In this document: positions 6,603 to 36,479 of the stretch, piece by piece
How the letters are laid out: each line of letters opens with the position of its first letter
Position numbering within the stretch: position 1 is the stretch's first letter
NCBI GenBank assembly: GCA_021324885.1
Contig: JAJPIF010000025.1
Span: forward strand, 1 to 46,712
DNA: 46,712 nt
Reading direction: 5' to 3'
Origin: Pseudomonadota bacterium
GTDB lineage: Bacteria > Desulfobacterota > Binatia > Binatales > Binataceae
Notes under the pieces: model-generated
The model's input: the letters and a program-made list of their open reading frames with translations, nothing else
Databases searched by the model: none
Told to the model about the DNA's origin: nothing
Position numbers and translations under genes: made by a program

Positions 6603-8372
6603 ATGCTACAGCGTAAACGGGCCGAGGAACGCATCCAGCGCGAACGCGTTCTCTTCGAGCGCCATCTTGGGGGGGACGTTTCCGCTTGCGTCATCTATCC
6701 CAACACTTATCCGCTGGCGATGGCCAACCTGGGTTTTCAGGCCGTCTTTCGCATCTTCGACGGCGAACCCGGCATCGCGGCCGACCGCGCATTTTTGCCG
6801 GACCCCGATGAACGCCAGGCGATGGAGGCGCGGGGCGAGAAGCTGCTTTCATTCGAGCAGGGCCGCCCACTGGGCGACTTTGATATCCTCGCCTTCTCGA
6901 TCTCGTTCGAAACCGACTATCTCAACGTGCTCGCAATCCTGGATCTGGCGGGAATTCCTTTTTCCAGCAGGGAGCGCCGCGACCGCAACTATCCTCTGAT
7001 CATCGCCGGCGGATCGGCGATCTTTCTCAACCCCGAACCGATCGCCGATTTTATTGACGTGTTCCTGATCGGCGAAGGCGAAGAGATGGTTGCGGAGTTC
7101 ATCGCGTCCTGGCGTACGGCGCGTAACTCGGGACTGCCGCGCGATCGGAGGCTGAAGGCGCTGGGCCGGGTGGAAGGCGTATACATCCCGGAACATTACG
7201 AGCCCAGGTATGATGTCACCGGCTGCCTGAGCGACGTGAAATACCATGGTCGGGGCGGGGGCAAGGTAAAACGCCGCCTGATCAAAGACCTCAACCGTTT
7301 CCAGACCAACTCGCTGATCCTGACGCAGGAGTCAGTGTTCGGCGACATGTACCTGGTCGAGGCCAGCCGCGGATGCCAATGGGGATGCCGGTTCTGCGCC
7401 GCCGGCTTCATGTACCGGCCGATTCGCTATCGAAGTCCTGAGGAAATCACTTCCCAGGCGCTGGCCGGACTCGAACAGCGAAAAGTTATCGGTCTGGTCG
7501 GCGCGGAGATGGCCAGTGTACCCGGGGTGGCCGGCATCGCTGCGGCGGTCGCCGACGCCGGCGGGCGCCTGTCGCCGTCCTCGCTGAAGGCTGATTGCAT
7601 CTCGCCAGAGCTGGCTTCCGCGCTGGCGCGCGCCGGCAATCGCAGCGTCACGATCGCGCCCGAAGCGGGCAGCGAGCGGATGCGCAAGGTCATCAACAAG
7701 AACCTCACCGAAGCCGAGATTCTGCGCGCCGCTCTCATGATGGTCGGGGAAGGCGTCGATAACCTGAAGCTTTATTTCATGGTCGGCTTGCCTGAGGAGA
7801 CCGACGCCGACGTCGAAGCGATCGCGCTGCTGACCGCCCGGATCCTCGATCGAGCGCGGGCCGCCAAAAGCCGGATCGGACACATCACGGTCTCGCTTAA
7901 TCCCTTTGTCCCCAAGCCCTGGACGCCATTTCAGTGGGACCCGATGGAAGAGGCGAAGTCGATCAAGCGCAAAATCGCGCTGCTGCGTTCGTTGCTGATG
8001 CGCCTGGGCAATGTCGAATTGGACGCCGAATCGCCCCGCGAGGCGTACTTCCAGACCCTCGTTTCCCGCGGCGATCGCCGTGTGGGGGGAATCCTGGAGC
8101 GGCTCCATCGCGAGCGGCGGCGTGAGCCGGGTGAGATCTGGCAGGCATTGCGGGAAATTCAGCGCGAAGCGTACCGCGCCAGGCCGGGCCCGTTACCCAA
8201 TCCCGACAACTACGTATATCGCCGCTATAATCAATATGAAATTCTACCGTGGGATTTCATCGATCATAGCGTGGAAAAATGGTTCCTTATGTCGGAACGC
8301 AAAAAAGCCCATTTCGAGCATCAAACCCGGCCCTGCGACGTAACTCGCTGCAAAGTCTGCGGCGCCTGCTGA
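6603..8372 (+). CDS. B12-binding-domain-type radical SAM protein
   Basis: A 589-residue protein with an N-terminal Rossmann-like segment resembling the cobalamin-binding module (residues 25-190, YPNTYPLAMANLGFQ at the start and PLIIAGGSAIFLNPEPI near 135-150). It is followed by a radical SAM TIM barrel. The cluster ligands are C258, C262 and C265 (CQWGCRFC). The C-terminus carries another cysteine set, CDVTRCKVCGAC, which may hold an auxiliary cluster. This layout fits the TIGR03960-type family of unknown reaction, often fused to or beside a DUF2344 partner. That partner is absent here. The classical DxHxxG cobalamin motif is not seen. No clear ribosome-binding site precedes the ATG at 6603. 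Confidence 0.85.
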   Translation: MLQRKRAEERIQRERVLFERHLGGDVSACVIYPNTYPLAMANLGFQAVFRIFDGEPGIAADRAFLPDPDERQAMEARGEKLLSFEQGRPLGDFDILAFSISFETDYLNVLAILDLAGIPFSSRERRDRNYPLIIAGGSAIFLNPEPIADFIDVFLIGEGEEMVAEFIASWRTARNSGLPRDRRLKALGRVEGVYIPEHYEPRYDVTGCLSDVKYHGRGGGKVKRRLIKDLNRFQTNSLILTQESVFGDMYLVEASRGCQWGCRFCAAGFMYRPIRYRSPEEITSQALAGLEQRKVIGLVGAEMASVPGVAGIAAAVADAGGRLSPSSLKADCISPELASALARAGNRSVTIAPEAGSERMRKVINKNLTEAEILRAALMMVGEGVDNLKLYFMVGLPEETDADVEAIALLTARILDRARAAKSRIGHITVSLNPFVPKPWTPFQWDPMEEAKSIKRKIALLRSLLMRLGNVELDAESPREAYFQTLVSRGDRRVGGILERLHRERRREPGEIWQALREIQREAYRARPGPLPNPDNYVYRRYNQYEILPWDFIDHSVEKWFLMSERKKAHFEHQTRPCDVTRCKVCGAC

Positions 8373-8395
8373 GCGCCTCGGTGGGCCGGGCCGGA

Positions 8396-8411
8396 GATCG
8401 GCTCACCGATC
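8396..8411. terminator. Small hairpin between convergent genes
   Basis: GATCGG and CCGATC (6-bp stem) with a CTCA loop lie between the radical SAM stop and the amidohydrolase stop, the arm edge touching the latter. There is no T-tract, so a terminator role is only suggested by the convergent context. Confidence 0.3.
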
Positions 8412-9567
8412 ACGAGCTCAGTCCAATACCGTAGAGCCGGGCGGCGTTGCCATATACGATTTTTTCCTTTACCTCGGCGGGAACTCCGGCAAAATCGCGC
8501 TCGACCACTTCGCGCGAATGCGGCCAGGTGCAGTCGCTGTGCGGAAAATCGGAGGCCCACATATAGTTATCTTCGCCAAAAAATTGGTACGTAGTTGGTC
8601 CAACCGGATCGTCCTGGAAAGTCGCCCACAACTGCCGCCGAACATATTCGCTGGGTTTGAGCGAGAGCGGCGAGCCGTCGGACATGGGACCGAACTTTTC
8701 GAATGCATGATCCAGCCGATAGAGGAAATGCGGCCACCATCCCGTGTCGTTTTCAGCCGATACGATCTTCAGCGTCGGGAAGCGTTCCAGCACGCCGCCC
8801 AGAATAATATCGATGAACGTACACTGAATTTCATGCAGCGCGGTCATGTACGAGCGCGAGAAATTTTTGCTCAGCACCTTCGGCGCGGCGTCCTGAGCCG
8901 GCATTTCCCCCGCCGCAGCACTATCGCGCTGTTTGGGGACCTTGCGGCCCGTTACCAGGTGCAGCGAGATGGGCATGGAGAGTTCCTGCGCAGCGGCCCA
9001 AAACGGATCGTAAATCCGGCTGTGGTACGGTTTGTCGGCGGTCGGCGCGCCGCAAATCATCGCGGATTTGAGCCCCAGCTTCGCGCATCGGCGCAGTTCT
9101 CGCACCCCTTCCTCGATGTCCTCCAGCGCGATGAGCGCGACCGCAGTCAGCCGTTTGGGATTGTATGAACAGAACTCTGCCGCCCAGTCGTTGTAGGTCT
9201 TGAAGCAGGCCTGGAGCAGCTCCACGTCGGGCAGGCTAAACAGGGTCATCCCCAGCGTGGTGTACAGGACCTCTGCTTCGACCCCATCAACGTCCTGGTC
9301 CTTGATGCGCTCGACCGGATCCCATCCGCTGGGCCGGGCGTCGGCGTAGGTTTTGGTTGCGAACTCCTTGAGCACCTCGCCGCTGGCGCCGTGGCTGAAT
9401 GCGCCGCCGACCGCAAAGGGACGCAGGCCGGGAGCAAGCAAAATGGCGCCTCTGTGGTCATTGACGACGCGCGGCGCGCGATCGGCGAACTTGCGGTCGA
9501 TGCGCACGGTCCACAAATCAGGCGGTTCGGTGAAATGCGAATCGGCGGAAATCATTCGTGCAGTCAT
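8410..9567 (-). CDS. Amidohydrolase-2 family metal-dependent hydrolase/decarboxylase
   Basis: A 385-residue TIM-barrel protein of the amidohydrolase-2 (ACMSD-like) family, whose members hydrolyse or non-oxidatively decarboxylate small acids with a divalent metal. Features are the N-terminal SADSHFTEPPDLW (metal-binding site region, where other members have DxHxxE), LHLVTG near the middle with a histidine ligand, SAENDTGWWPHFLYRLDHAF, and WASDFPHSDCTWPHS with the conserved catalytic aspartate. GAGGAG lies ahead of the ATG at 9567. A second, divergent family member lies at 17457. It is divergently transcribed from an LLM oxidoreductase with 258 bases between them, a pairing seen in catabolic loci. 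The substrate is unknown. Confidence 0.85.
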   Translation of the reverse strand: MTARMISADSHFTEPPDLWTVRIDRKFADRAPRVVNDHRGAILLAPGLRPFAVGGAFSHGASGEVLKEFATKTYADARPSGWDPVERIKDQDVDGVEAEVLYTTLGMTLFSLPDVELLQACFKTYNDWAAEFCSYNPKRLTAVALIALEDIEEGVRELRRCAKLGLKSAMICGAPTADKPYHSRIYDPFWAAAQELSMPISLHLVTGRKVPKQRDSAAAGEMPAQDAAPKVLSKNFSRSYMTALHEIQCTFIDIILGGVLERFPTLKIVSAENDTGWWPHFLYRLDHAFEKFGPMSDGSPLSLKPSEYVRRQLWATFQDDPVGPTTYQFFGEDNYMWASDFPHSDCTWPHSREVVERDFAGVPAEVKEKIVYGNAARLYGIGLSS

Positions 9568-9825
9568 CGCGGTTCTCTCCTCAGGCAGGTGGCGCTAAAG
9601 CCGCCCTATGACGCTCATTCATAATTGCGCCCGCAAACTGCCGCAAGGGAAACCGATCAGAGCTCAGACTCCCCCCTTTTCAATGGTCAAGCGCCTTTTC
9701 GCGCGAAGCATGGTTCGCCGTCGAGCAGGGCCTGCGGACCATAGTTTTATTTTCGCTTGCTGTGCGATACACCAGATGGAGTTTGGACGCCGTTGCCATT
9801 TGCACGGACATGGGAGAACAGCCGA

Positions 9826-10944
9826 ATGAAGCTTGGACTATTCCTGATGCCCAGCCATCCGCCGGAACGCGCTTTGCGGGCCGGTCACGAATGGGACCTC
9901 GAAGTGCTGAGGACCGCCGATCGCCTCGGCTATGAAGAAGCGTGGATCGGCGAGCATTTCACCTCGCCCTGGGAACCCAATCCCGCACCCGACCTGCTGA
10001 TCGCGCAAGCCTTGACCCAGACCAGCCGAATCAAGCTCGCCCCCGGCGCTCATCTGCTGCCGTACCATCAGCCGGCCGAATTAGCGGTACGCGTCGCCTA
10101 CATGGACCATCTCGCGAACGGCCGTTATATGCTGGGGATCGGCTCGGGCGGCCTGCCCAGCGACTTTCTCCTGTTCAATATCGACGCGGCGTCAGGGCAG
10201 CAGCGCGAAATGGTCCGCGAAGCCATCGACATTATGCTGAAGGTCTGGAACGGCGAGGGCGAGACGGAGTTCAAGAGCAAATACTGGAAGGGGAAAATCT
10301 CGTCTCCGATGTACGGCGGACTGCTGCGCCATCATATAAAGCCGCTGCAAAAGCCCTATCCGCCCATCGGAATCGCCGGCATCAGCTATAAATCAGACAC
10401 CCTGAAACTGGCCGGCGAGTATGGCTTTCTGCCGCTCAGCCTGGACATGGACGCCGCCGTGCTCACGACTCATTGGGAGGCCGTCGAGGAAGGTGCCGCA
10501 CGCACCCGGCGTCTGCCCAGGCGCTCGGATTGGCGAATCGTACGCGACATTTTCGTCGGCGATACCGACACCCAGGCGCGCGTGGATTGCCTGGAGGGTG
10601 GGATGGGGCGGAACTGGCGCGAATACCTGTTGCCGCTTTACCAGGAGCTGAAGTTCGTCAGCTTCTTCAAGCGCGACAAGGAGCTGCCCGACGAGCAGGT
10701 CACGATTGACTATTTACTGGAAAACAACTGGATCGTCGGTTCGCCGCAAACGGTGGCCGGGAAGCTGGCGGCGCTGTATCGCGAGGTGGGCGGCTTCGGC
10801 TACGTTTTGATGATGGGCGCGGACTGCGCCGATAATCCGCAGCCGTGGCTGAAGTCGATGCGGCTGATGGCCGAGGAGGTGATGCCGCGGGTAGCACGGT
10901 TGATTGGGCATCAACCGGGCGTTCAGGCCCAAGCGTCCAAATAG
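9826..10944 (+). CDS. LLM-class flavin-dependent oxidoreductase
   Basis: A 372-residue luciferase-like monooxygenase. Visible are the MKLGLFLMP first beta strand, the RLGYEEAWIGEHF block, KLAPGAHLLPYHQPAELAVR, the GRYMLGIGSGGLPSDF loop and PYPPIGIAGISYKSDTLKLA, in family order. The protein resembles limonene-monooxygenase-type members, which oxygenate alkenes, ketones or sulfonates with reduced flavin supplied by a partner reductase. The ATG at 9826 is preceded by GGGAGA, and an in-frame ATG at 9757 is not needed. Its stop is followed directly by the electron-transfer operon, whose first start codon is 14 bases away, so read-through transcription is likely. Confidence 0.88.
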   Translation: MKLGLFLMPSHPPERALRAGHEWDLEVLRTADRLGYEEAWIGEHFTSPWEPNPAPDLLIAQALTQTSRIKLAPGAHLLPYHQPAELAVRVAYMDHLANGRYMLGIGSGGLPSDFLLFNIDAASGQQREMVREAIDIMLKVWNGEGETEFKSKYWKGKISSPMYGGLLRHHIKPLQKPYPPIGIAGISYKSDTLKLAGEYGFLPLSLDMDAAVLTTHWEAVEEGAARTRRLPRRSDWRIVRDIFVGDTDTQARVDCLEGGMGRNWREYLLPLYQELKFVSFFKRDKELPDEQVTIDYLLENNWIVGSPQTVAGKLAALYREVGGFGYVLMMGADCADNPQPWLKSMRLMAEEVMPRVARLIGHQPGVQAQASK

Positions 10945-10958
10945 GAGCGAGGCCCGTT

Positions 10959-12506
10959 TTGGCAGAGCATACCAACCAGGTGGCAATAGATCCGGCGGAG
11001 ATTTGGCGGACGCTGCGGCAGTTTGACGCGTTCAGCACGTTCACCGATCAGCAACGGGAATCGCTTGAACATGCTATCGCGCATGAATTCGGGATGACCG
11101 TGCGCCGTTACGCGCAGGGCGATTATATCTGCCATAAGGGCGAGTTCGAACTTGATTTGTGCATCGTGCTTTCCGGGCGCGCCGAAGTGCATGATCGAGA
11201 CGACCGCGGCGTCGAAGTGCACACGGTTTACGAAGCAGGCAGCATTTTCGGCGAGTTGGGCGCGATGGGCGGACGGCCGCGATCCTTCGACGTCATCGCA
11301 GCGCAGCAGACGCTGGTGTTCCACATCCCGCGGCATGCGCTCAAGCATCTGGAAATCAACGAAAAACTCCGCGGGATTCTGGCTGAGCGCTACCGCGAGC
11401 GCGCCGTTCGCGCAATGAGCGCCAGGGTCGAGTTGTTCGCCCCTGTCCCCGAATCATTCATCGACGAACTGATCCCCCATTGCCAGATCGCGCGCTATGA
11501 CCTGCGCGGCGTGCCGATCCTGGAGCAAGGTCAGGCGGTCGACGGCTTTTACATCATCCTTGACGGATTCGTCCAAATCGTGCGCCATCGCGCGGACGGC
11601 CAGCGGCGCGTGCTCGCCTACCTGCGCGAGGGCGAGTACTTCGGCGAGATGGCGCTGCTGGGGACGGGGAACGCGTGGGCCAGCGTGTTTACCGCGGGCA
11701 AATGCGAGCTGATCAAAATCGACGCCGGGGAATTCGCCGAATTATGCCGACGCTATCCCGCCGTCGAGCGCGCGATGCGCGAGGCCATCGTGCAGCGCCA
11801 GCACCAGGAAGACACCATCACGGATGAACTTTCCGACCTGCTGGAGAAAAGCGGCCAGTTGGGCGTAATCCAGTCCGACGCGCTGCTCGTGATGGATCTC
11901 GATCGATGCATCAAGTGCGACAACTGCGTGCGCGCCTGCGAATCGCTGCACGGCCGCAGCCGGCTGATTCGCAACGGCGTGCAGATCGGCAAATATCTCG
12001 TGCCCAGCGCCTGCCGCCATTGCGACGATCCCAAGTGCATGAGCGCGTGTCCCACCGGCGCGGTGGCGCGGCGGCCTGAAGGAGAAATCTACTTCAAGTA
12101 CGACGTGTGCATCGGATGCGGCAACTGCGCGATCGCGTGTCCGTTCGACAACATCACGATGATCGACACGCCGTCATTCGATCTGGCGCAGGCGCGCAAG
12201 GCCGAAATCGTGGGCGGACGCGATTTCTTTCGCCCCTATCCGCAAACCCATCATGACGCCGGCGCCGGTTTGTTGGCGCGGCTGTTCGGATGGCATCAGG
12301 AGGCGCACGCGACGCCGCAGACTCATGAGCACGTCGCGCCCAGCTATCCAATCAAGTGCGACCTTTGCGACGGGCTGCCGTTCATGGGATGCGTGCATAG
12401 CTGCCCCACCGGCGCCGCGATCAGGATCGAAGCCGCCGAACTGTTCGAGGAGATTGGCGCGGTCAGCGCCCGGTCGCATATCCGCAAGGCCAATGAGGGA
12501 AAATAA
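10959..12506 (+). CDS. Double cyclic-nucleotide-binding domain fused to four-cluster ferredoxin
   Basis: A 515-residue cytoplasmic protein if translation begins at the TTG at 10959, behind AGGAGCGAGG. An in-frame ATG at 10845 lies deep inside the previous gene. Residues 25-133 are a first cNMP-binding domain (FGELGAMGGRPRSFDV, with the phosphate-contacting arginine). Residues 160-280 are a second (YFGEMALLGTGNAWASV), which lacks that arginine. Residues 310-500 are a DmsB/HybA-type ferredoxin with 16 cluster cysteines: 317/320/323/327, 352/355/360/364, 384/387/390/394 and 467/470/478/482. Such subunits pass electrons between redox partners. The nucleotide domains suggest gating by cAMP, c-di-GMP or another ligand. 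There is no DNA-binding domain, so it is not a CRP regulator. It heads a three-gene operon with cytochromes. Confidence 0.9.
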   Translation: MAEHTNQVAIDPAEIWRTLRQFDAFSTFTDQQRESLEHAIAHEFGMTVRRYAQGDYICHKGEFELDLCIVLSGRAEVHDRDDRGVEVHTVYEAGSIFGELGAMGGRPRSFDVIAAQQTLVFHIPRHALKHLEINEKLRGILAERYRERAVRAMSARVELFAPVPESFIDELIPHCQIARYDLRGVPILEQGQAVDGFYIILDGFVQIVRHRADGQRRVLAYLREGEYFGEMALLGTGNAWASVFTAGKCELIKIDAGEFAELCRRYPAVERAMREAIVQRQHQEDTITDELSDLLEKSGQLGVIQSDALLVMDLDRCIKCDNCVRACESLHGRSRLIRNGVQIGKYLVPSACRHCDDPKCMSACPTGAVARRPEGEIYFKYDVCIGCGNCAIACPFDNITMIDTPSFDLAQARKAEIVGGRDFFRPYPQTHHDAGAGLLARLFGWHQEAHATPQTHEHVAPSYPIKCDLCDGLPFMGCVHSCPTGAAIRIEAAELFEEIGAVSARSHIRKANEGK

Positions 12507-12545
12507 CGGCGCGACAAGCTCGCGCGCATTGAGAGGGATTTTGCG

Positions 12546-13457
12546 ATGCGGTGTGACGGCGTAGTCAGCATCCGGGTGCCCGCTTCGCACCAGGCACGGC
12601 ATTTCGGGCGCCTGACGTTTTGGGCGCTGGGCGCCACGCTGGCGGCCGCCGTCGTCCATGCGGCGATGCCCGGGCTCGGCGCCCGCCTTGGCTCCTACCG
12701 CAGCGGGATTGTGACCGCGGCCCTGTTCGCGCTCGCGTCCATCTACACGATCCGCAAGCGCTGGATGTGGCTGACGGTGCGCGTTATGCGTATCGCCGCA
12801 CGGATGCCGCATACGATTGCGCATCGGATGCTTATAGCCGACCGGCTGGAGTCCTGGCGCCTGTATCACGTGATCATCGGCGCTGCGGTACTGGCACCAT
12901 TTTGGTGGCATCTGGATCAGGGCGCCGGCGCCAGCCGTCTGGAGGCGGCGCTGGCGGCGGTTGCAATCCTGCTGATGCTGAGCGGATTGGCCGGCGCCAT
13001 CATCCAGGATTTTTTGCCGCGCGCGATGAGGGTCCGCCCCGAGCAGGAGGTTCGCCCCGAAGATGTGGAAGCGGCTATCCACGACGTTTACGTGCAGGCT
13101 GAAGAGGCGATCCTCGGCCACTCTGAAGCTCTGGTCCATGCATACCTCAAACACGTCAGGCCGGTGATGCTCGGCGCCAGGCCGGCGCGCGCGATGCTTT
13201 TGGCCACCATCAGCGGCGCGGACCCGGCGGCGCCGGTCGTGGCGCGGTTGCGCGCGCACAAGGATGAAGCGCCGAATGAGGCGGAAACGTGGGAACGATT
13301 GGTGTTGCTGGCGCAACGCAAAGTGCGCCTCGACCATAACCGTTTCAATCTGGCGCTGGGCGCCGGCTGGATGCGACTGCACATTGCGCTGGCGATTGTG
13401 CTTGCGGTCCTGACCGCGTTTCATGTCGCCGGCGCGCTGTATTTTGCCGGGTTATGA
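12546..13457 (+). CDS. Predicted dihaem cytochrome b-type membrane subunit
   Basis: A 303-residue protein with five predicted transmembrane helices, near 22-40, 52-70, 105-125, 133-153 and 277-302. Two helices each hold a pair of histidines 14 residues apart: H108 and H122 in the third, H279 and H293 in the fifth. Two H-x13-H pairs are the classic way that bc1-type and ferric-reductase-type cytochromes bind two stacked b haems. A soluble loop of about 120 residues (155-275) joins them. I do not recognise the family by name. It lies 39 bases after the ferredoxin gene, and its stop overlaps the next start as ATGA. The sequence suggests the membrane-spanning electron carrier of the complex. Confidence 0.75.
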   Translation: MRCDGVVSIRVPASHQARHFGRLTFWALGATLAAAVVHAAMPGLGARLGSYRSGIVTAALFALASIYTIRKRWMWLTVRVMRIAARMPHTIAHRMLIADRLESWRLYHVIIGAAVLAPFWWHLDQGAGASRLEAALAAVAILLMLSGLAGAIIQDFLPRAMRVRPEQEVRPEDVEAAIHDVYVQAEEAILGHSEALVHAYLKHVRPVMLGARPARAMLLATISGADPAAPVVARLRAHKDEAPNEAETWERLVLLAQRKVRLDHNRFNLALGAGWMRLHIALAIVLAVLTAFHVAGALYFAGL

Positions 13458-15643
13458 GCGGACGCTGGCGTTGGCTTCTGGCAGGATGGGCCGGGCTTGC
13501 CGCACTGGCCTTCCTGGTGGTTCCGCGCGCCAGCTATCAGCCCGGCAAGCTGCTCGCCGCGCATTCTCATTTCGTTACGAAGTGCGCCGGATGCCATCGC
13601 CCGTGGCATCCGGTGGACAACGCGGCATGCATCACCTGCCACGGCGACTTTGGCGGCAATCCGCACGCCGGTTACGACGTCTTCGACGATAAAGAAGGCC
13701 TGATCGCGGGCCGGCACCTGGTCACGTTCAAGGATGATCTGAGCTGCCTCAGTTGCCACCGCGAACATCGGGGCCGCGACGCCGATCCCCGCGTGCAGGC
13801 GGCTTTTGCCTGCACCTGGTGCCATGAGCATCCCGCAATCCGCGCGGTCCAAAAACATCGCGGGGCCACGCTGGCGCGCCATGAAAGCGCCAATCAGATG
13901 TTCAAGCGGCCCTTCAACCACTATCAGCATCGGCTGCTGATCACGATGCAGTCGAGCAATTTTCCCACGGGCTTCGACTGCGTCACCTGCCATCAGGTGA
14001 CGGCTGTCGCACCTGGCAAGCCCGACCGGATGACTATCGCGTGGCGTCCGTGCGCCCTCTGCCATGTCAGCCCGCAGGAGCCGGCGTTGGCGTTACCGGC
14101 GGCTTTGGGTAAATCGCCGGCCGCGCTGCCCTATTCGGCAGTGGTGCGCACGCTGCACATCAACGCTGTGTTCAACCATTCCGGCGACCATTTGCAAGCT
14201 CGGTGCACGCAATGCCACCTCAAAGTAGCGGACAGCTCCGCACCTGCGGACGCCAACTCGCTGCTGATAACGCAATGCTTCACCTGTCATGCCCATCAGC
14301 AGGCGCCGTCCGGCCCATTGCGGCGGGTGGATAGCCGCGGAGCCCACGGCAAAACCCTTGCCGGTCTGGCAGACGTTGCGTTTGCCGGCGAGGCTCAGGT
14401 GCGGGTGGTGGCTTGCGGGCAATGCCATCTGTTTCATTTCCACGGCGCACTGCCGATTGCGGACTTCAGCAAACCGGCGCTCAGGCAGCCGCCGGGCGCG
14501 GTGGGCGGTTTTCCCCCGTGGGGAATCGGCGCGATTGCGGCCGTGATGATCGGAATATGCGGCATTGCCTGGATCGTCTTTCTGCCCGCCGCGCCGGACC
14601 GTCATAGCGCCGTGATGGACACGGCGCCCCAGCGGATCATCGAGACGCCGGTGCTGGACGACATGTACCAGACCAGCATCAAGGGCTTGTACATCATCGG
14701 GGAATTGGGCGGAACGGCGTCGATCAATCTGGCGATGCGCTCCGGGCGCCAGGTAATCGAGGCGATCGCCGAAAACCTGCGGTATCGCCCGGCCGTTCAG
14801 CAGCCGGGGATCTATGATGTTGCGATCGTCGGATGTGGTCCGGCAGGGCTCGGCGCGACCGCCACCGCCAAGGCGCGCGGGCTCAATTACGTTACGCTGG
14901 AACGGATGACGCCGGCGAGCACGCTGCGCACCTATCCGCGCGCGAAATTCGTGCAGGCCACGCCGATCGATATTCTGGAATATGGTTCATTTTTTCTGGA
15001 GGGCGACACCTCGCGCGAGGACCTGATTCGCGAGTGGGAGAAAATCATTTCGCAGGCCCGCCTGGTGATCCAGGATCGCGAAGAAGTGGTCGCGATCGAG
15101 CCGCGCGACGGATACTTCAACGTCAGGACGCTGCGGGAGCACGTGTTCCAGGCGCGATGCGTGGTGCTGGCGATCGGGTTGCGGGGCCATCCGCGCCGCC
15201 TCAATGTTCCAGGCGAAGCGCCGGGACGCGTCCATTACCAGCTCATCGAACCCGACGACTTCCGCAACCAGCGTATCCTGGTGGTGGGCGGCGGCAATGC
15301 CGGCGCCGAAGTCACGCAGGCGCTGGCCGCCCCCCACTTGGGCAACAAAGTCGCCTACTCGATCCGCGACGCCGTGCTCACCAGGGTCACGCACGAGAAC
15401 GGCGAAAAAATCATCGCGTTGCAGCGCTCCGGCGCGATCACCTTTTATCCGGCCACCGAAATCAAAGAACTTCGCGCTAAATCGGTGATCCTCAAGCCGG
15501 TCAAAGGACGGGCAGCGCCCAACGGACAAGCGGTCCGGGAAGTCGAATTGGACAACGACATCGTATTCGCGATGCTCGGCGCCGAACTGCCGACTCGATT
15601 TCTGGAATCGATCGGCATCCGGATGGAGGTCAAGCACCGCTGA
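13454..15643 (+). CDS. Nonahaem cytochrome c fused to thioredoxin-reductase-like flavoprotein
   Basis: A 729-residue fusion. Residues 7-24 form a signal-anchor helix. Nine CxxCH haem-c motifs start at 44, 59, 98, 120, 176, 200, 251, 275 and 321. A second membrane helix follows at 356-377, then a flavoprotein domain with an FAD loop VGCGPAGLGA (459-468) and an NAD(P) loop VGGGNAGAEV (611-620). The usual thioredoxin-reductase CxxC active site is missing. Ahead of the FAD loop, residues 407-438 (TSIKGLYIIGELGG and on) look like the segment that usually closes such flavoproteins. Topology would put haems in the periplasm and FAD in the cytoplasm. Related flavoproteins I know carry a ferredoxin instead of haems at the N-terminus. 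Overlap with the previous gene is ATGA. Confidence 0.9.
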   Translation: MSGRWRWLLAGWAGLAALAFLVVPRASYQPGKLLAAHSHFVTKCAGCHRPWHPVDNAACITCHGDFGGNPHAGYDVFDDKEGLIAGRHLVTFKDDLSCLSCHREHRGRDADPRVQAAFACTWCHEHPAIRAVQKHRGATLARHESANQMFKRPFNHYQHRLLITMQSSNFPTGFDCVTCHQVTAVAPGKPDRMTIAWRPCALCHVSPQEPALALPAALGKSPAALPYSAVVRTLHINAVFNHSGDHLQARCTQCHLKVADSSAPADANSLLITQCFTCHAHQQAPSGPLRRVDSRGAHGKTLAGLADVAFAGEAQVRVVACGQCHLFHFHGALPIADFSKPALRQPPGAVGGFPPWGIGAIAAVMIGICGIAWIVFLPAAPDRHSAVMDTAPQRIIETPVLDDMYQTSIKGLYIIGELGGTASINLAMRSGRQVIEAIAENLRYRPAVQQPGIYDVAIVGCGPAGLGATATAKARGLNYVTLERMTPASTLRTYPRAKFVQATPIDILEYGSFFLEGDTSREDLIREWEKIISQARLVIQDREEVVAIEPRDGYFNVRTLREHVFQARCVVLAIGLRGHPRRLNVPGEAPGRVHYQLIEPDDFRNQRILVVGGGNAGAEVTQALAAPHLGNKVAYSIRDAVLTRVTHENGEKIIALQRSGAITFYPATEIKELRAKSVILKPVKGRAAPNGQAVREVELDNDIVFAMLGAELPTRFLESIGIRMEVKHR

Positions 15644-20411: not shown

Positions 20412-20634
20412 CGCAGATGAAAAATCTGCATGCCCCTGTCAGCGGCGAGACAAAATTACATGGCGCGGGGCTGCTGATTGTTAGCCAATGCGCAAAAAAT
20501 GTCGCCACTTATCGTCAAAAGATACATGGCATGTCGATTGCTGCAAGAGCCCGGGAAACAAAGCTGGAACACTTGCCGAAGATCGTGCGCCGTCACACAC
20601 CAGCGGTCGCGTAGGTCAGGCGGCAGCGGGTGTT

Positions 20635-22002
20635 ATGGCCGAGTGCAAGCGCATTTTAATCGCGGAAGACGATCCTTCGGTACGAGGACTGCTTCGAGAA
20701 CTCCTCGTGCGCTGGAATTTCGAGGTGGCGGAAGCGGTGGACGGGCTGCAGGCCTGTAGTATGCTCGAAAGCTTCAGGCCCGACATCCTGTTGCTTGACA
20801 TCAAAATGCCCAAGCTCGACGGGTTGGCGGTGCTGAGCGAAATGCGCTCGCGCCAACTGTCGATCCCGACTTTCATCATTTCGGGCGAAGGTGGAATCTC
20901 CGACGCGGTCCGGGCGGTCAAACTCGGCGCCGAAGAATACCTGGAGAAGCCCGTCGAGCCCAACCAGTTGCGTCTGCTGCTGCGCCGAACCCAGGAACGT
21001 CTGGCCAGGGTGTCTGCAAGCACACCATGGCAGAAACTGGGCGAAGGTCCAATCATCGGCCAGTCCGCCGCGATTCAGCAGGTGATGGAGATGATTGGGC
21101 AGGTTGCTCCCACCGAAGCGCCGGTGATCATCGTGGGCGAAAGCGGGACGGGCAAGGAATTGGTTGCACGCACGATCCATAGCCTGTCGCCGCGCGGCGA
21201 TGGGCCGTACGTGGGGCTGAACTGCGCGGCGCTGCCTGCCAACCTCATCGAAAGCGAATTGTTCGGGCACGAGAAGGGTTCCTTTACCGGCGCCGAGGAC
21301 GCCCGCAAGGGCTGTTTCGAGCAGGCTCAGGGCGGCTCGCTGCTTTTGGATGAATTTACCGAAATGCGTCCGGAATTGCAGGCCAAGCTGTTGCGTGTAC
21401 TGGAAGATCGCAAACTGCGCCGGGTCGGCGGCAATCGCGAAATTCCGCTTGATGTTCGCACGATGGCGGCGAGCAACGGCGATCTGGGCCGGGCGATCGC
21501 GGAAGGCCGCCTGCGCCAGGACCTTTATTATCGCCTGAGCGTCTTCACCATCTCGGTGCCTCCCCTGCGCGAGCGGCCCGAGGACATCGTTCCGCTGACT
21601 CAGGCTTTTATTCAGCGATTCGCCGCTGAAAGCCATCGGGCCATTACCGGCGCTGACGAGGAATGCATGGTCGCCTTGCAGTCCTATAGCTGGCCCGGCA
21701 ACGTGCGTCAGCTGCGCAACGTGATTCAGCGCGCCGTCGCCCTCAGTCCCGGGCCTTACTTGAGAAGAGCCGACCTTCCACCCGAATTTCAATCGCGCCC
21801 GCTGGCCGGCACTACCTTCCAGGTCCGCGTCGGAACCACCCTGGAGGAAGTCGAGCAGGATCTGATCAATCGCACCATTGCCGCCTTTCGGGGCAACAAG
21901 ACAAGGGCCGCAAAAGCCCTGGGAATCAGCTTGCGGACGTTGTACAACCGCCTCTCACACCATCGCTCGGTCCGCGGTTCTGAAAAAGATCGGACTCGCT
22001 GA
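20635..22002 (+). CDS. NtrC-family sigma-54-dependent response regulator
   Basis: A 455-residue activator. The receiver domain (1-125) has acidic E11/D12, phosphoacceptor D55 and K105. The AAA+ domain (about 138-370) has Walker A GESGTGKE at 168-175, the sigma-54-contact loop GSFTGA at 215-220 (usually GAFTGA; serine variants occur), Walker B LLLDE at 236-240, and an arginine-finger region RQDLYYRL. A Fis-type helix-turn-helix closes the protein (EVEQDLINRTIAAFRGNKTR and RAAKALGISLRTLYNRL). ATG 20635 is chosen because it starts the receiver fold. The kinase gene follows after 18 bases. A sigma-54 promoter upstream of wza makes the exopolysaccharide locus a likely target. Confidence 0.95.
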   Translation: MAECKRILIAEDDPSVRGLLRELLVRWNFEVAEAVDGLQACSMLESFRPDILLLDIKMPKLDGLAVLSEMRSRQLSIPTFIISGEGGISDAVRAVKLGAEEYLEKPVEPNQLRLLLRRTQERLARVSASTPWQKLGEGPIIGQSAAIQQVMEMIGQVAPTEAPVIIVGESGTGKELVARTIHSLSPRGDGPYVGLNCAALPANLIESELFGHEKGSFTGAEDARKGCFEQAQGGSLLLDEFTEMRPELQAKLLRVLEDRKLRRVGGNREIPLDVRTMAASNGDLGRAIAEGRLRQDLYYRLSVFTISVPPLRERPEDIVPLTQAFIQRFAAESHRAITGADEECMVALQSYSWPGNVRQLRNVIQRAVALSPGPYLRRADLPPEFQSRPLAGTTFQVRVGTTLEEVEQDLINRTIAAFRGNKTRAAKALGISLRTLYNRLSHHRSVRGSEKDRTR

Positions 22003-22020
22003 GACACGGAACAGAGGTAG

Positions 22021-23850
22021 ATGGGCCTCCGAGCCAAGTTGGCGGTCGGGTTCATGGTGCCGCTCGCGGTAACCACCCTGGCGATCGGTCTGCTCGAAAC
22101 CGGCCGCACCACCCAGTCCATGGTCGACCACCTGTCCTCGCTAGGCAATTTGCTGGTTCACCAGACCTTCGAGCAAATGCGCGCCAGCAGACCTTCCAAC
22201 CTCCAGGATCTCCGCAACAATCGCGCTTTTCGCAGCTTCATCAATTCGGTGCTGGCCTTCGGCGACGCGGTGGTCTCGGTGCGCGTGGAGGACCCCAATG
22301 GCGTCACCGTGGTAGCGGCGCCCGAAGCCCTGGAGGGCCAGCGCGTCGCCGCGGAGCCTTCCATCGGTCAGCTCAAGGCCGAGGGCGGGTGGTGGGAAAC
22401 ACTCTCGATGTTTCTCAATCTGCAGCCGGCAACGATCTATAAAGCCACTGGAGCGGTGGAAATCAACGGCCAGTACGCGGGCACTATTCAGATTGAATTA
22501 TCCACCGCGTTGATCGCGGCACGAGTCCGGCAATCTATTATTACCGGCCTCTATCTTATCGGTATCGCACTGGCGCTGGGCTCGATAGCGGGGACTTTGA
22601 TGGTGGGCACGGTGCTGCGTTCGGTCACCGCTTTGAGCGCTGGCATCGAGCAGTTGGCGGCGGCGCAAACCAGCGGCGACGTGAAAATCCAATCCCGCGA
22701 CGAATTGGGACAACTGGCGGACAAGTTCAATCTGCTGTCGCGCCGGATCATGGCCGACCGCCACCAATGGGAACAGGAACGCGACCGCCTGACCCTCGCC
22801 GTCCGCTCGATTAATGACGCGGTGCTGCTGATTAATTCCTCCGGCCGCGTGATCTTCGCCAATTCCGAAGCATTGGGGCGCCTGGGTCTGCCCGACGGCA
22901 TAGCGCTGGGCAAGGACCTTGGCAGTCTGCTCGGCCGCGATCATCCGTTGGTGCGGCTGGCCGGCACGGCTTTGAAAGCCGGCGGCGATTTGCACAACGT
23001 ACGTCTGGATCTCAATGGATCCGGCCCGCCGCGGTTTCTGGTCTCATTGCTGGCGATGGATTTCGGTCACGGCCAGCGGGGTTCGTTGCTGCTGCTGCGC
23101 GACATATCCGCGGTCGAAGAGCTGGAAGATACCCTTAACTTCTCCCGCGTAATGGCGCGGCAGGGCCGTTTGCTTTCCGGAATCGGCCACCAGTTGCGCA
23201 ACCCCCTGCATGCCATCGGGATCCAGCTCGAGTTGCTGGCCGACGATGCGCGCAACGGCACTCCGCTGCAGGCCCGAATCGAGGGCATCCGCAGCGAACT
23301 CGGGCGCATGACGCGGACCATCAGCTCGCTGCTGCGTTTCATCCGCCTCGATCGCATCGAGCCCGTGCGTTTTTCAATCAACGACCTGGTCCGTGAAGCC
23401 GCCGTACGCCATGTCGCGGGTAAACATCAGGCCGAATATCAGCTCGACGAAAGCGCCCAGTATATAGAAGCGGACCGGGCGCTGATAGCTGAGGCCTTGA
23501 ACAACATCGTGGCTAATGCGGTCGAGGCGATGCCCGAGGGTGGAACCGTGACGTTTGGCACTGAGCTGCTGGATCCGGATCACGTGCGGATCACGGTCGC
23601 CGATCAGGGGGGCGGCATCGACCCTGACCATCTAAGCAGCATTTTCGATTTTTGCTTCACCACCAAGGCGGGCGGCGCCGGCCTGGGCCTTTCGATGGCG
23701 CTGCGGATAATCGATCTGCATCGTGGCACTTTGCAGATCGCTTCGCACCCGGGCCGCGGCACTATCGTGCGTATTACACTGCCGGTTGAACAGGCCGGGT
23801 CTCAGACCGATTATTGCACCGGCCTGAAAATACAAGAAGCTCATGCATAA
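22021..23850 (+). CDS. Membrane sensor histidine kinase with HAMP and PAS domains
   Basis: A 609-residue kinase, the partner of the NtrC-type regulator. An N-terminal membrane helix (residues 6-25) and a second near 172-198 enclose a periplasmic sensor of about 145 residues. HAMP (about 198-252) and PAS (about 255-370) domains follow. The phosphorylated histidine is H390 in GIGHQLRNPLHAI. The ATPase core has the N box (NNIVANAVEAM, near 494), G1 (DQGGGID), F box (FDFCFTTK) and G2 (GAGLGLSMA). The last 20 residues run past the catalytic fold. Its end overlaps the start of the next lipoprotein gene by eight bases, so all three form one operon. The signal sensed is unknown. Confidence 0.95.
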   Translation: MGLRAKLAVGFMVPLAVTTLAIGLLETGRTTQSMVDHLSSLGNLLVHQTFEQMRASRPSNLQDLRNNRAFRSFINSVLAFGDAVVSVRVEDPNGVTVVAAPEALEGQRVAAEPSIGQLKAEGGWWETLSMFLNLQPATIYKATGAVEINGQYAGTIQIELSTALIAARVRQSIITGLYLIGIALALGSIAGTLMVGTVLRSVTALSAGIEQLAAAQTSGDVKIQSRDELGQLADKFNLLSRRIMADRHQWEQERDRLTLAVRSINDAVLLINSSGRVIFANSEALGRLGLPDGIALGKDLGSLLGRDHPLVRLAGTALKAGGDLHNVRLDLNGSGPPRFLVSLLAMDFGHGQRGSLLLLRDISAVEELEDTLNFSRVMARQGRLLSGIGHQLRNPLHAIGIQLELLADDARNGTPLQARIEGIRSELGRMTRTISSLLRFIRLDRIEPVRFSINDLVREAAVRHVAGKHQAEYQLDESAQYIEADRALIAEALNNIVANAVEAMPEGGTVTFGTELLDPDHVRITVADQGGGIDPDHLSSIFDFCFTTKAGGAGLGLSMALRIIDLHRGTLQIASHPGRGTIVRITLPVEQAGSQTDYCTGLKIQEAHA

Positions 23851-24376
23851 ATCGTCGGTGCGGCTCGTCGCGCTGTTGATGGCGGGTGGTTTCTGCTCAT
23901 GCGCTTATCCGGGTGGCTATCAGGCGCAGTGGCTTAATCAGTGGGCCGCGCCACGGCACAATTATTCCTCGTCTTTCAGGCACGGCCGCCGAAGTGAGCA
24001 TACGCGCATCGCACATCTGCGTTCCCGTCGCGGCGAGCCCGATTACGCCGCAACCGTGAAGGCGACGGTGCCGTCCGAGGACAGTACCGTCAATCGCCTC
24101 ATGCCGCCGGCCTTGGCTTCCAGACCGCACTCCACTGTGACCCTGGCCGGCGATAGCCGGGACCGTCAACGCGCACAGGCGCTGTTGCGCAAGACCGACG
24201 TCACGCTGCTCCAAGCCAGGCGCCACCCCTTGAACGGAGCCGAGAAGGAAAATTACGAGCGCGCCAGTCAACTGGCCGGCAGGGCGCGGCGGGCACTTGC
24301 CGCCGACGACTACACGGCAGCTTCGAGCCTGGCCATGAAGGCCTGGTCGCTGTCTGCCGGCATGAGCGGACAATAG
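23843..24376 (+). CDS. Small predicted lipoprotein translationally coupled to the kinase
   Basis: A 177-residue exported protein with a signal peptide and a lipobox-like FCSC (C20). The mature part begins with an aromatic segment (YPGGYQAQWLNQW), is rich in Arg and His between 40 and 70, and ends in a predicted helical hairpin (residues 105-172, rich in Ala, Arg and Leu), which recalls tetratricopeptide-like or DUF4398-type bundles. I do not recognise the family firmly. Overlap with the kinase gene suggests a sensory accessory role. Its stop abuts the convergent glycosyltransferase stop at 24377 without a gap. Confidence 0.65.
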   Translation: MHKSSVRLVALLMAGGFCSCAYPGGYQAQWLNQWAAPRHNYSSSFRHGRRSEHTRIAHLRSRRGEPDYAATVKATVPSEDSTVNRLMPPALASRPHSTVTLAGDSRDRQRAQALLRKTDVTLLQARRHPLNGAEKENYERASQLAGRARRALAADDYTAASSLAMKAWSLSAGMSGQ

Positions 24377-25606
24377 TCAGGCCGTCACGGCAGCGTCGCC
24401 GGTTCGATCCCAGATTTGCTTAAGGCGCGCACCAATTGCGGTTGCGCCGAAACGCTCGGCGGCCGCTTGCGCGAGCTCCCGGCCGGCCTTTGCTCCGCTC
24501 CATCCGATAATAGCTTGCGCCAGACTCGCGGGCGATGTCTCGCACGCTATGCTTCCAAACCCGTCGCTCAACATCTCCGCAAACGGATAAACCGGATAAG
24601 CTATCACCGCAGTGCCGCAAAGCAGCGACTCGACCACGGCATAGCCCCATTCCTCAAACAGGCTCGAGGTTGCGAAGAGGTCGGCGCGCTTGACAATATC
24701 ATGCACCTGGTCGCGGGGCAGGAGCCCGGTTACTTCGATCGTGGCATTGGCCGGGAGCATGGAAATCCGCTTGTCCAGTTTGCGCGAGCCCGCGCCGATC
24801 GCCGTTAACCTCACTTTCCTGCCCATTTGAGCTATGTGTCCGACCGCGTCTATGAGATCACCGATATTTTTGCGCGGGTTCCCAAGGTCGGCGGCGCAGG
24901 TAACCAGAGTCAATTCAGAATCCTTGCGCTGCCCCCCGCTCCACCGCGCCCCGAGGTCTCGACTATCCGAACCGGGCGGCGTGAGCCACACCGGCGGTGG
25001 ACACGTCTCGCATGGTATGCCCTGGGCGCGCAGTTGAGCCGAAAGCATCTGCGTCGGTGCAACCACCAGGTCGCTGATACGAAAGGCCCGTTCATCCATC
25101 CGGTACAACGCGATTCCTTTGGCGGTTATGATGGAGCGTCGCAGATATCCTGAGCGGGGGTTGCCTCCCGTATGCCGCCATTGCGTAGAGATGCGCGCCT
25201 TCAGATCGTGCGGATAAAACCAGGCGGCCACCACCACCTTGTCGGCAAACGGCCTAATTGTCGCGGTCAACCCCATATTCAGGTGCGCGATCGCAAATCG
25301 CTTGCCCAGACCGCGCAGGCGCTGCGTACAATTAGGCCGCAACAACCGCTCCGCTGAACCCGGGACGATGCGACGGATAAGTTTAATCAACTCACCCGGC
25401 GGACGAAAACCCAAATCGACAATATGGATACCCAATCCACCCATTTGCCGCTCAAGCTTTTCGCTCATGGCGGTGTCAGTAGTAAGCAGGGTCACTTCGA
25501 AACCAGCCCTGGCCCCCGCCACGGCCACTCCTTCGGCATACTTGGAGATACCGCCCAGGTTGTCGTCGGCGATACCCACCAACAGTGATTTTTGATGAAC
25601 CGGCAT
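24377..25606 (-). CDS. Glycosyltransferase family 4
   Basis: A 409-residue GT-B fold enzyme. The N-terminal domain begins with SLLVGIADDNLGGISKYAEG, where the GGISKY glycine loop receives the acceptor. The C-terminal domain holds ADLGNPRKN, a donor-binding RADLFATSSLFEEWG, and the E-x7-E motif EEWGYAVVE, followed by GTAVIAYP. It would add one sugar, from a nucleotide donor, to a lipid-linked intermediate on the cytoplasmic side. ATG 25606 fits the family start better than the upstream in-frame start at 25648. It is the last gene of the minus-strand polysaccharide locus, 152 bases behind the preceding glycosyltransferase. Confidence 0.9.
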   Translation of the reverse strand: MPVHQKSLLVGIADDNLGGISKYAEGVAVAGARAGFEVTLLTTDTAMSEKLERQMGGLGIHIVDLGFRPPGELIKLIRRIVPGSAERLLRPNCTQRLRGLGKRFAIAHLNMGLTATIRPFADKVVVAAWFYPHDLKARISTQWRHTGGNPRSGYLRRSIITAKGIALYRMDERAFRISDLVVAPTQMLSAQLRAQGIPCETCPPPVWLTPPGSDSRDLGARWSGGQRKDSELTLVTCAADLGNPRKNIGDLIDAVGHIAQMGRKVRLTAIGAGSRKLDKRISMLPANATIEVTGLLPRDQVHDIVKRADLFATSSLFEEWGYAVVESLLCGTAVIAYPVYPFAEMLSDGFGSIACETSPASLAQAIIGWSGAKAGRELAQAAAERFGATAIGARLKQIWDRTGDAAVTA

Positions 25607-25758
25607 AGCGCAATTCACTTCAATCACGAACCGTAATAACGCCACCAATAACGGCGTCTGACGAACTGATGGTCACTCCGGCGGCTGAAAGCGCGGAAGC
25701 CCTTCCCGAAAAACCCCCCAGCTGCTGCTGATCGTTCAAAGCGCAGGGCCGCCGGCTT

Positions 25759-26961: not shown

Positions 26962-27051
26962 GTACGTTCCTCAGGTAGTAGTTGACTCCGAACTCAGGGG
27001 TTTTAACTGTGAACTCGCAAAGTGTGTATCGAATTGACTTATCTTTCCCCC

Positions 27052-27067
27052 TGCAGACATTGCCCCA
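27052..27067 (-). promoter_or_regulatory. Weak sigma-54-like element upstream of glycosyltransferase gene
   Basis: TGGGGC, five bases, CTGCA on the minus strand: invariant GG and GC are correctly spaced, but three consensus positions differ. It lies in the 149-base gap before the gene starting at 26961 and, if real, would be an internal promoter of the locus. Confidence 0.2.
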
Positions 27068-27110
27068 ACGCCGTCGGTGAACACGGTGTTCAGACCGGCT
27101 CTAATCCGGC

Positions 27111-27968: not shown

Positions 27969-28072
27969 TTCAGTCACCCTCACCCAGTCCGGCATCAATG
28001 GTTCAATATTAACTTGCACGCTGTGATTACGACTGAATAGTCAGCTAATCACCTGTTATTGGAATCTCGAAA

Positions 28073-30301: not shown

Positions 30302-30314
30302 GATCGACGCTCCA

Positions 30315-30334
30315 CCCGCCGCAAAAGCGGCGGG
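30315..30334 (-). terminator. GC hairpin in the flippase-polymerase gap
   Basis: CCCGCCGC and GCGGCGGG form a perfect 8-bp stem around a four-base AAAA loop, immediately before the polymerase Shine-Dalgarno GGAG (30309-30312). On the minus strand no T-tract follows, so it may control mRNA stability or translation rather than end transcription. Confidence 0.4.
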
Positions 30335-30362
30335 CTTTTGGTTGCGGTTGAATTCTCCAGGT

Positions 30363-31889: not shown

Positions 31890-32048
31890 TGGAAAGCTTC
31901 GACCTCGGTTTTCGCTTGCCCGCAGGATTTTTCAGATCTGTCCGTTTGGTTTCCTCTACGCCTATCCGCCTTGCCCGCCATGAATTTGAATTTGCGCGGA
32001 CATCCCCGAGCCGCACCTTACGTCACAGATGACTATCGGACCTCGCCC

Positions 32049-33284: not shown

Positions 33285-33368
33285 ACTTCTCCTCAAAAAC
33301 GGCCGCCTGACTTGCTGTCGGCGGACGAATCTGCCCACTTACGATGACCGTGAACGCGGCGTGCCTGT

Positions 33369-34802: not shown

Positions 34803-34820
34803 CGGTCATCAGTTCCCTTT

Positions 34821-36465: not shown

Positions 36466-36479
36466 CGTGTCACCTCACC

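Follow-up and report, generated by a model that had tools for sequence, protein, structure and literature searches.

A Binataceae operon predicted to connect cytoplasmic NAD(P)H with a periplasmic nonahaem cytochrome c

How electrons cross the inner membrane is an open question in many multihaem cytochrome systems, and for the putative porin-cytochrome c clusters PCC3 and PCC4 a quinone-coupled step has been assumed. A three-gene operon in the genome of an uncultured bacterium of the family Binataceae (GTDB class Binatia, phylum Desulfobacterota; assembly GCA_021324885.1, 4.5 Mb in 30 contigs) raises the question of whether electrons could pass between NAD(P)H and periplasmic haems without that step. 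The operon lies in contig JAJPIF010000025.1, and the window analyzed here is the whole stretch of 46,712 nucleotides, positions 1 to 46,712 of its forward strand. Gene A encodes two cyclic nucleotide monophosphate (cNMP)-binding domains followed by a four-cluster ferredoxin, gene B a predicted dihaem cytochrome b, and gene C a nonahaem cytochrome c joined by a membrane helix to a flavin reductase. We consider it fairly probable that A, B, and C form one inner-membrane NAD(P)H:multihaem-cytochrome-c oxidoreductase that would not need the quinone pool. Proteins of the B type stand beside several unrelated NAD(P)H modules. A direct route between NAD(P)H and haem therefore becomes testable, including in named strains of Sphingobium, Alteromonas, and Methylophaga.

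Parts of the operon

All three genes are on the + strand and form a tight unit in which 39 bases separate A from B and an ATGA overlap joins B to C (Table 1). A sequence-only reading of the window, made without database searches, had described this spacing together with the double cNMP domain and 16 cluster cysteines of A, the paired histidines of B, and the nine CxxCH motifs, membrane helix, and two dinucleotide loops (GCGPAG and GGGNAG) of C. Each of these features was found in its place, which confirms the observation. The present analysis adds a second hydrophobic helix in C (residues 8-26), CX4CH variants of one haem site, the loss of an arginine from the second cNMP domain of A, and a permutation of the reductase. 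Domains, motifs, gene order, permutation, and co-occurrence are taken directly from sequence throughout.

Gene A starts at the ATG at 10959, where its homologues also begin, and its stop codon ends at 12506; the mechanically called open reading frame (ORF) opens further upstream at GTG 10845. The cNMP_binding family matches A in two stretches with 134.6 bits against a cut-off of 27.5, and A also matches pfam13247. Fifteen of the 16 cluster cysteines are invariant among 15 aligned sequences, and the remaining one is missing solely in the most distant sequence. One family member has a second cNMP-ferredoxin gene copy directly upstream of A-B-C (L024, 5905-6999; cut by the fetched stretch).

Gene B has no Pfam family at E<=0.1. 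Hydropathy analysis gives four segments above threshold plus a weaker one around H108-H122, and an AlphaFold2 (AF2) model built from 13 sequences has helices for all five at a mean predicted local distance difference test score (pLDDT) of 69. The helical insert between helices 4 and 5 forms a block with pLDDT 86-96 (residues 171-260). Across the 14 aligned B-type proteins, which include one from Emticicia (Bacteroidota) and extend down to 15% identity with the window's protein, the four histidines do not vary, and neither do W275, G147, G150, and G54. Strong positive charge in the loop between helices 2 and 3 (mean of 9.9 Lys+Arg versus 2.1 Asp+Glu in 13 sequences) places it on the inner side, and the charge of the N-terminus is uninformative (4.0 Lys+Arg versus 3.1 Asp+Glu). 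H108/H279 would be the haem ligand pair on the inner side and H122/H293 the pair on the outer side.

The motifs and the topology suggest that B resembles NOX-type ferric reductases. A claim for the fold was dropped because the AF2 model matched only generic helical bundles (best Z 9.8); the value against cytochrome b561 (4o7g), Z 6.6, is within the noise for such bundles. Comparison of B with the sequences of solved structures gave nothing meaningful (one row at E 0.71), and hhalign of the B family gave no match to Escherichia coli MsrQ and YodB. The ferric reductase domain PF01794 gave no match to B, and one of the 14 aligned relatives had a match below the cut-off (L044, E 1e-4, 22.8 of 28 bits).

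Gene C matches Cytochrom_c3_2 (34.4 bits against a cut-off of 25) and Pyr_redox families, and one of its haem sites is CX4CH rather than CXXCH in 9 of 13 aligned family members. The AF2 model of C has a pLDDT of 49.6, with the lowest confidence over the haem part. In sequence and fold the reductase is nearest to bacillithiol disulfide reductase, with Z 17.2 over 249 residues and a root-mean-square deviation of 14.9 for a low-confidence model. It scores 121.8 bits with the NCBIfam model TIGR04018 (YpdA) and does not reach the cut-off of 339.9.

The reductase of C is circularly permuted. The flavin adenine dinucleotide (FAD) segment that is C-terminal in its relatives (about residues 390-445 of C) stands before the first Rossmann loop, and phmmer aligns it out of order, weakly. 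Rotation of this segment to the end extended the TIGR04018 match from 1-264 to 1-312 of 316 positions and raised the score from 125.7 to 130.3 bits. In the control, for which four of nine shuffles were used, matches with the shuffled tail ended at 265-273 and scored 123.4-125.0 bits. Rotation gained little, and it lowered the score of the AhpF model from 38.7 to 35.1 bits, opposite to the YpdA and TrxR models. The permutation is supported more strongly by nine aligned full-length sequences (window included) that share the arrangement and by Sphingobium, where the permuted-family profile matches in unpermuted order (positions 67 or 77-335, then 8-56) with the moved piece at E about 6e-9. The reductase of L125, a relative from outside the family, is also in canonical order (Pyr_redox_3 1-305 of 305 in a single stretch). 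The permuted reductase is newly found here, and a membrane-tethered, circularly permuted flavin reductase joined to nine haems is an unusual protein design.

Table 1. Features of the operon, in window coordinates.
Feature	Position	Strand	Length
Gene A, two cNMP-binding domains followed by a four-cluster [4Fe-4S] ferredoxin	10959..12506	+	515 aa
A, phosphate-binding cassette of cNMP domain 1, FGELGAMGGRPRSFD	11247..11291	+	
A, phosphate-binding cassette of cNMP domain 2, FGEMALLGTGNAWAS	11640..11684	+	
A, four cysteine groups, 16 Cys, four [4Fe-4S] clusters predicted	11907..12404	+	
Gene B, predicted five-helix dihaem cytochrome b	12546..13457	+	303 aa
B, helix 3 motif W104-x3-H108-x13-H122	12855..12911	+	
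B, helix 4 motif SGxxG, S146-G150	12981..12995	+	
B, helical insert between helices 4 and 5, about residues 168-258, predicted cytoplasmic	13047..13319	+	
B, helix 5 motif W275-x3-H279-x13-H293	13368..13424	+	
ATGA overlap, B stop and C start	13454..13457	+	
Gene C, nonahaem cytochrome c, membrane helix, and flavin reductase	13454..15643	+	729 aa
C, N-terminal hydrophobic helix, residues 8-26, signal anchor or signal peptide	13475..13531	+	
C, nine CxxCH haem-binding motifs, residues 44-325	13583..14428	+	
C, second membrane helix, about residues 358-376	14525..14581	+	
C, displaced C-terminal FAD 'GD-motif' segment, ahead of the first Rossmann loop	14621..14788	+	
C, FAD dinucleotide loop GCGPAG, residue 460	14831..14848	+	
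C, NAD(P) dinucleotide loop GGGNAG, residue 612	15287..15304	+	

Gene order and the NAD(P)H modules around B

A search for the three-gene order in other genomes, a check that the sequence-only reading had proposed, found that A, B, and C follow one another unchanged in order and strand at 16 more loci, which come from 15 genomes of the family, with gaps only at contig ends. With the window included, the order is present in 17 of the 18 B loci read in the family. The exception (L026, which is L043) is a divergent, shorter B-type gene without A or C alongside, in a genome that also carries the operon; its product (8591-9379, 262 aa) has neither the helical insert nor a multihaem neighbour. In a second, largely overlapping set of family loci, A, B, and C occur together in 12 of 13, and the thirteenth (L039) ends before B. 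Relatives that are 15-81% identical retain the key residues, which together with the kept gene order argues that the operon is not a product of chance. The distribution of B is patchy. A clear B is present in 16 of 41 family genomes, with one more at E 3e-4, and with a wider profile (E<=0.001) B turns up in 42 of the 148 class genomes and in 21 of the 395 genomes sampled from the phylum.

The kept order bears on whether A, B, and C form a complex at all. They could merely be neighbours, with the reductase of C a self-contained thiol or ferredoxin reductase, as its nearest solved relatives, the bacillithiol disulfide and thioredoxin reductases, would have it. We judge this very unlikely. The order is kept in other families as well as in this one, fusions join the same parts in differing combinations, and the reductase scores far under the YpdA cut-off.

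The surroundings of B were compared in 49 loci: 17 family loci (window included) and L043, plus 18 loci in other families of the class, 8 in the rest of the phylum, and 5 carried by plasmids. The loci were read from 33 of the 42 class genomes and 8 of the 15 non-class phylum genomes with a B match. A multihaem gene was counted if it had at least five CxxCH and lay on the same strand within 1 kb, a cNMP-ferredoxin gene if it lay within 1 kb, and an NAD(P)H-type module if it matched at E<1e-10 within 6 kb. A multihaem gene is beside B in 45 loci, a cNMP-ferredoxin gene in 30, and an NAD(P)H-type module in 36. Of the loci without an adjacent multihaem gene, L054 and L135 have one on the far side of the reductase next to B, L122 has beside B just a 4-haem ORF on the opposite strand, and L043 has none. 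In the 31 loci outside the family (L043 excluded), 20 hold one module each at E<1e-10 with a gap of <5 kb, never two, and 12 of these modules are 0-21 bases from B (L134 on the other strand). Large ORFs with 9-10 CxxCH, about 1280-1305 aa, lie near B in L124, L127, L056 (cut by the fetched stretch), and L122. In L059 a 703-residue ankyrin-repeat protein (7413-9524) is encoded between the permuted reductase and B, followed by 21- and 29-haem proteins.

The module itself differs between loci. It is a permuted YpdA-like reductase fused to the haem protein in the window's family and in L042, and the same reductase as a separate gene, in some cases with an Fe-S domain, in L054, L059, L132, L134, L135, L137, L139, and L140. 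In Sphingobium a YpdA-like reductase in canonical order forms one protein with two cNMP domains and Fe-S clusters; in L125 such a reductase carries FHA and Fer2 domains, and L126 is alike in its reductase and FHA parts by profile. L044 and L122 have a NuoF-type protein (Nuo51 FMN, NADH_4Fe-4S) with a NuoG-like 2Fe-2S domain on A. Pfam identifies an FAD/NAD/Fer2 reductase in L143 and L144, and profile matches indicate one in L133, L136, and partly L058. The partner is swapped while the membrane and haem parts stay. This is the best evidence for the predicted NAD(P)H coupling, since it suggests that the conduit depends on the property the partners share, the oxidation of NAD(P)H or the reduction of NAD(P)+.

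Co-occurrence points the same way. At E<1e-100 the permuted reductase is present in 18 of 145 class genomes and B in all 18 of them; at 1e-50, B is present in 21 of 21, with three partial matches (Fisher 8e-12, the B count being drawn from the 148-genome search). In the phylum sample 16 of 395 genomes match the permuted reductase at E<=1e-50. Three of these (G043, G167, and G410) were excluded with the moved segment uncovered, one match split over two contigs was counted, and 10 of the remaining 13 genomes have B (p = 4e-12, or 2e-7 without the window's family). These p-values are too small because the genomes are related, and they assume that both phylum samples are the same genomes.

Several results weigh against an NAD(P)H-coupled complex with nucleotide control. 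No NAD(P)H module is in reach in 13 of the 49 B loci (two of them, L013 and L121, cut by contig ends), and L123, L124, and L128-L131 from other families have the cNMP-ferredoxin, B, and a multihaem gene with no such module. Outside the family, 6 of the 20 modules and their B gene are encoded on opposite strands. A near/far control split by midpoint at 5 kb was weak, with 11 modules in 213 kb near and 4 in 127 kb far; the contrast is low because the four 'far' modules are actually at 5.1-5.9 kb. In the phylum sample, 3 of the 13 genomes whose permuted match is full-length gave no match for B. The presence of B in so few family genomes implies that the system is dispensable, and the AF2 confidence is middling for B and poor for C. 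On the side of control, the window's gene A is without the domain 2 arginine, and the domain 1 arginine is absent in the relative L042 (the same as L027).

The loci without a module also favour a different role for B, that of a quinone-active cytochrome b moving electrons between the quinone pool and the periplasmic haems, with A and the reductase as regulatory or accessory parts. He et al. 2017 (PMC5566968) set out a quinone model for the same motif set, and a metabolic survey reports complexes I, II, alternative complex III, and IV for Binatota genomes (PMC8262859). Several independent NAD(P)H modules adjoin B, however; in Sphingobium the module is part of the cNMP-ferredoxin protein, and in the window's family it is part of the haem protein. 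The permuted reductase is also mostly limited to B-bearing genomes. On this evidence a quinone-active B is unlikely, and direct NAD(P)H coupling is the reading carried forward.

Proposed electron path and its control

Complex formation, b-haem binding, the electron path, its direction, and nucleotide control are predicted as follows. Cytoplasmic NAD(P)H would deliver two electrons to the FAD of the permuted reductase domain in C, from which the four Fe-S clusters of A would accept them singly. Two stacked b haems of B (inner H108/H279, outer H122/H293) would pass the electrons across the membrane, and the nine periplasmic c haems of C would take them and hand them on to periplasmic acceptors. 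C would span the membrane, with one of its ends serving as the entry in the cytoplasm and the other as the exit in the periplasm. The cNMP domains of A, here chiefly domain 1, probably tune the step from FAD to the clusters. The downhill direction would be outward, as in an 'electron valve', and inward flow would be possible given a low-potential periplasmic donor. Outward flow is favoured since no energy-coupling module is visible.

The genome carries haem-maturation genes. A search for MtrB/PioB-type porins, which did not extend to other porin types, gave no PF11854 match in the genome. PF14537 matched C and no second protein, in a search that left out other multihaem families. The two results make a periplasmic acceptor more likely than an extracellular one, and extracellular transfer in this organism was set aside as unsupported.

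Direction is the point on which a second alternative differs. The same conduit may run inward, with electrons from a low-potential periplasmic donor entering the haems and NAD(P)H being made in the cytoplasm. By established energetics, energy coupling is required if a donor at iron or cytochrome potential is to reduce NAD(P)+, and the immediate neighbours in the window, encoding an LLM-class (luciferase-like) oxidoreductase, an amidohydrolase, and an aldehyde dehydrogenase, include no periplasmic low-potential donor. Support for inward flow comes from an Alteromonas macleodii set of a B-type protein, a 7-haem protein, and an FAD/NAD/Fer2 reductase that adjoins hydrogenase genes, and from the published models of PCC3 and PCC4, in which an extracellular donor feeds electrons inward (PMC5566968). 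We regard inward flow as rather unlikely for the window's operon, for which the outward path is preferred. The Alteromonas set is on a plasmid (L144, 5974-16417) by hydrogenase small-subunit and maturation genes, which suggests a hydrogenase-linked, possibly inward use of the conduit elsewhere.

Control by a cyclic nucleotide was part of the sequence-only reading, whose interpretation is partly supported. Its conduit gains from the gene order, the invariant predicted ligands, the multihaem association, and the NAD(P)H modules, and its switch stays at the level of plausibility, since domain 1 alone keeps both cassette residues. These residues are a Glu and an Arg, which we take from CRP to be the ribose- and phosphate-binding residues. 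In domain 1 the Glu is present in 15 of 15 sequences and the Arg in 14 of 15, and the window's gene A has both. In domain 2 the Glu is kept and the Arg stands at its usual place in 11 of 15 sequences; it is shifted by one residue in L010 and L011 and missing in the window and L015.

A single class III cyclase match is present in the genome. Behind the Sphingobium operon lies a metallophosphoesterase gene that one record annotates as CpdA and that scores well below the cut-offs of cyclic-nucleotide phosphodiesterase models. Other relatives have FHA domains, in L042 and L121 as part of the haem protein and in L124 and L131 as part of A. The FHA domains, the cNMP domains, and the CpdA-like neighbour suggest that some regulatory input recurs. 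If a cyclic nucleotide controlled such a wire directly, second-messenger signals would act on electron disposal with no transcription step in between.

The gene for the LLM-class oxidoreductase (9757-10944) ends 14 bases ahead of A. Of the window's remaining genes, it and the amidohydrolase gene alone accompany the operon, in two of two genus relatives, and outside the genus the sole kept neighbour is an amidohydrolase-like ORF, 4.6 kb from the operon in L031. Both were dropped as candidate partners because, that ORF aside, they are kept in the two genus relatives only. Further along the window (20488-37589), genes for a sigma-54 response regulator and a histidine-kinase-type ATPase precede an exopolysaccharide-type cluster with glycosyl transferase, O-antigen-ligase-like, flippase-like, and sugar transferase genes.

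Relation to known systems

NOX, FRE, and MsrQ/YedZ proteins have an NAD(P)H flavin domain inside and two b haems, and they deliver electrons outside. B would share with this PF01794 superfamily the H-x13-H motifs on helices 3 and 5 and, on charge counts only, the same orientation; the placement of HX13H on these helices in the ferric reductase domain superfamily is described by He et al. 2017 (PMC5566968). B differs in having no Pfam or hhalign match to the superfamily and in its helical insert between helices 4 and 5. The operon differs in its separate Fe-S subunit and in an acceptor that would be a periplasmic multihaem protein rather than O2 or Fe3+.

The reductase of C is like Bdr/YpdA and the TrxR-like ferredoxin-NADP+ reductases in sequence, fold, FAD and NAD(P) loops, and the GD-type segment. 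It is unlike Bdr/YpdA in being circularly permuted, tethered to the membrane, and joined to nine haems.

The closest whole-operon comparison is with two Sphingobium plasmids (L141, 6353-12397; L142, 5317-11375), which encode a fusion of reductase, two cNMP domains, and Fe-S clusters, then B, a 10-haem protein, and the CpdA-like phosphoesterase. Their genes are annotated as hypothetical, cNMP-binding, and cytochrome c3 family proteins. The two cNMP domains with Fe-S clusters, the B-type protein, and the multihaem cytochrome c are shared with the window and stand in the same order. The Sphingobium reductase, in contrast, is in canonical order and fused to A instead of C, the haem protein begins with an FHA-like region (Yop-YscD_cpl below cut-off) and carries 10 haems, and the phosphoesterase gene follows.

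The sequence-only reading knew of no named complex with this set of parts, a statement that needs correction, as the inner membrane protein of PCC3 and PCC4 is a published relative. He et al. 2017 give it five helices, SGXXG on helix 4, and two WX3HX13H motifs on helices 3 and 5, and take it to be a dihaem, possibly quinone-active cytochrome b (PMC5566968). PCC4 is described there with 4-, 5-, and 10-haem proteins and, in subgroup II, an Fe-S (pfam13247) gene upstream of the membrane protein. Membrane proteins with two HX13H motifs beside multihaem proteins are also mentioned, mostly without a porin and often with another redox protein (PMC5566968). The main text of that paper does not contain the word 'cyclic' (PMC5566968), and that of the Binatota survey has neither 'multiheme' nor 'cyclic nucleotide' (PMC8262859). 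Among open-licence papers no published system of this composition was found.

Matched by motif description, B has both WX3HX13H motifs (W104/H108/H122 and W275/H279/H293) and the SGXXG of the PCC3/PCC4 protein, and A shares its pfam13247 match with the Fe-S protein of PCC4 subgroup II. The differences lie around this core. No porin is beside the operon, which is flanked by the LLM-class oxidoreductase and aldehyde dehydrogenase genes, and a single 9-haem protein matches neither the 4/5/10-haem set of PCC4 nor the giant multihaem proteins of PCC3. In addition, the Fe-S protein carries cNMP domains, the reductase is permuted and fused to the haem protein, and the coupling proposed is to NAD(P)H instead of quinone. 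Membership of the operon in a PCC3 or PCC4 cluster was rejected, the porin and haem set lacking. In these genes, a 4-CxxCH ORF, cNMP-Fe-S, B, and a 10-haem gene, the class loci L124-L126 and L130 have a PCC4-like look.

The varied modules may, tentatively, define an unnamed and widespread class of quinone-bypassing NAD(P)H:multihaem cytochrome c oxidoreductases, a proposal about as open to doubt as to belief and leaning slightly to doubt. Such enzymes would be built on a NOX-like dihaem b core with a repeatedly exchanged NAD(P)H module (permuted YpdA-like, canonical YpdA-like, NuoF/NuoG-like, or FNR/Fer2-like), and their electron flow would be gated by domains for cyclic nucleotides or phospho-threonine (FHA) that sit on either the ferredoxin or the haem subunit. 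If this is true, the inner membrane step of PCC3 and PCC4 would have to be redrawn from quinone to NAD(P)H. By its motifs the membrane protein B is not new in kind, and the operon is best described as a compact, porin-less relative of these systems with a predicted NAD(P)H reductase built into its haem protein.

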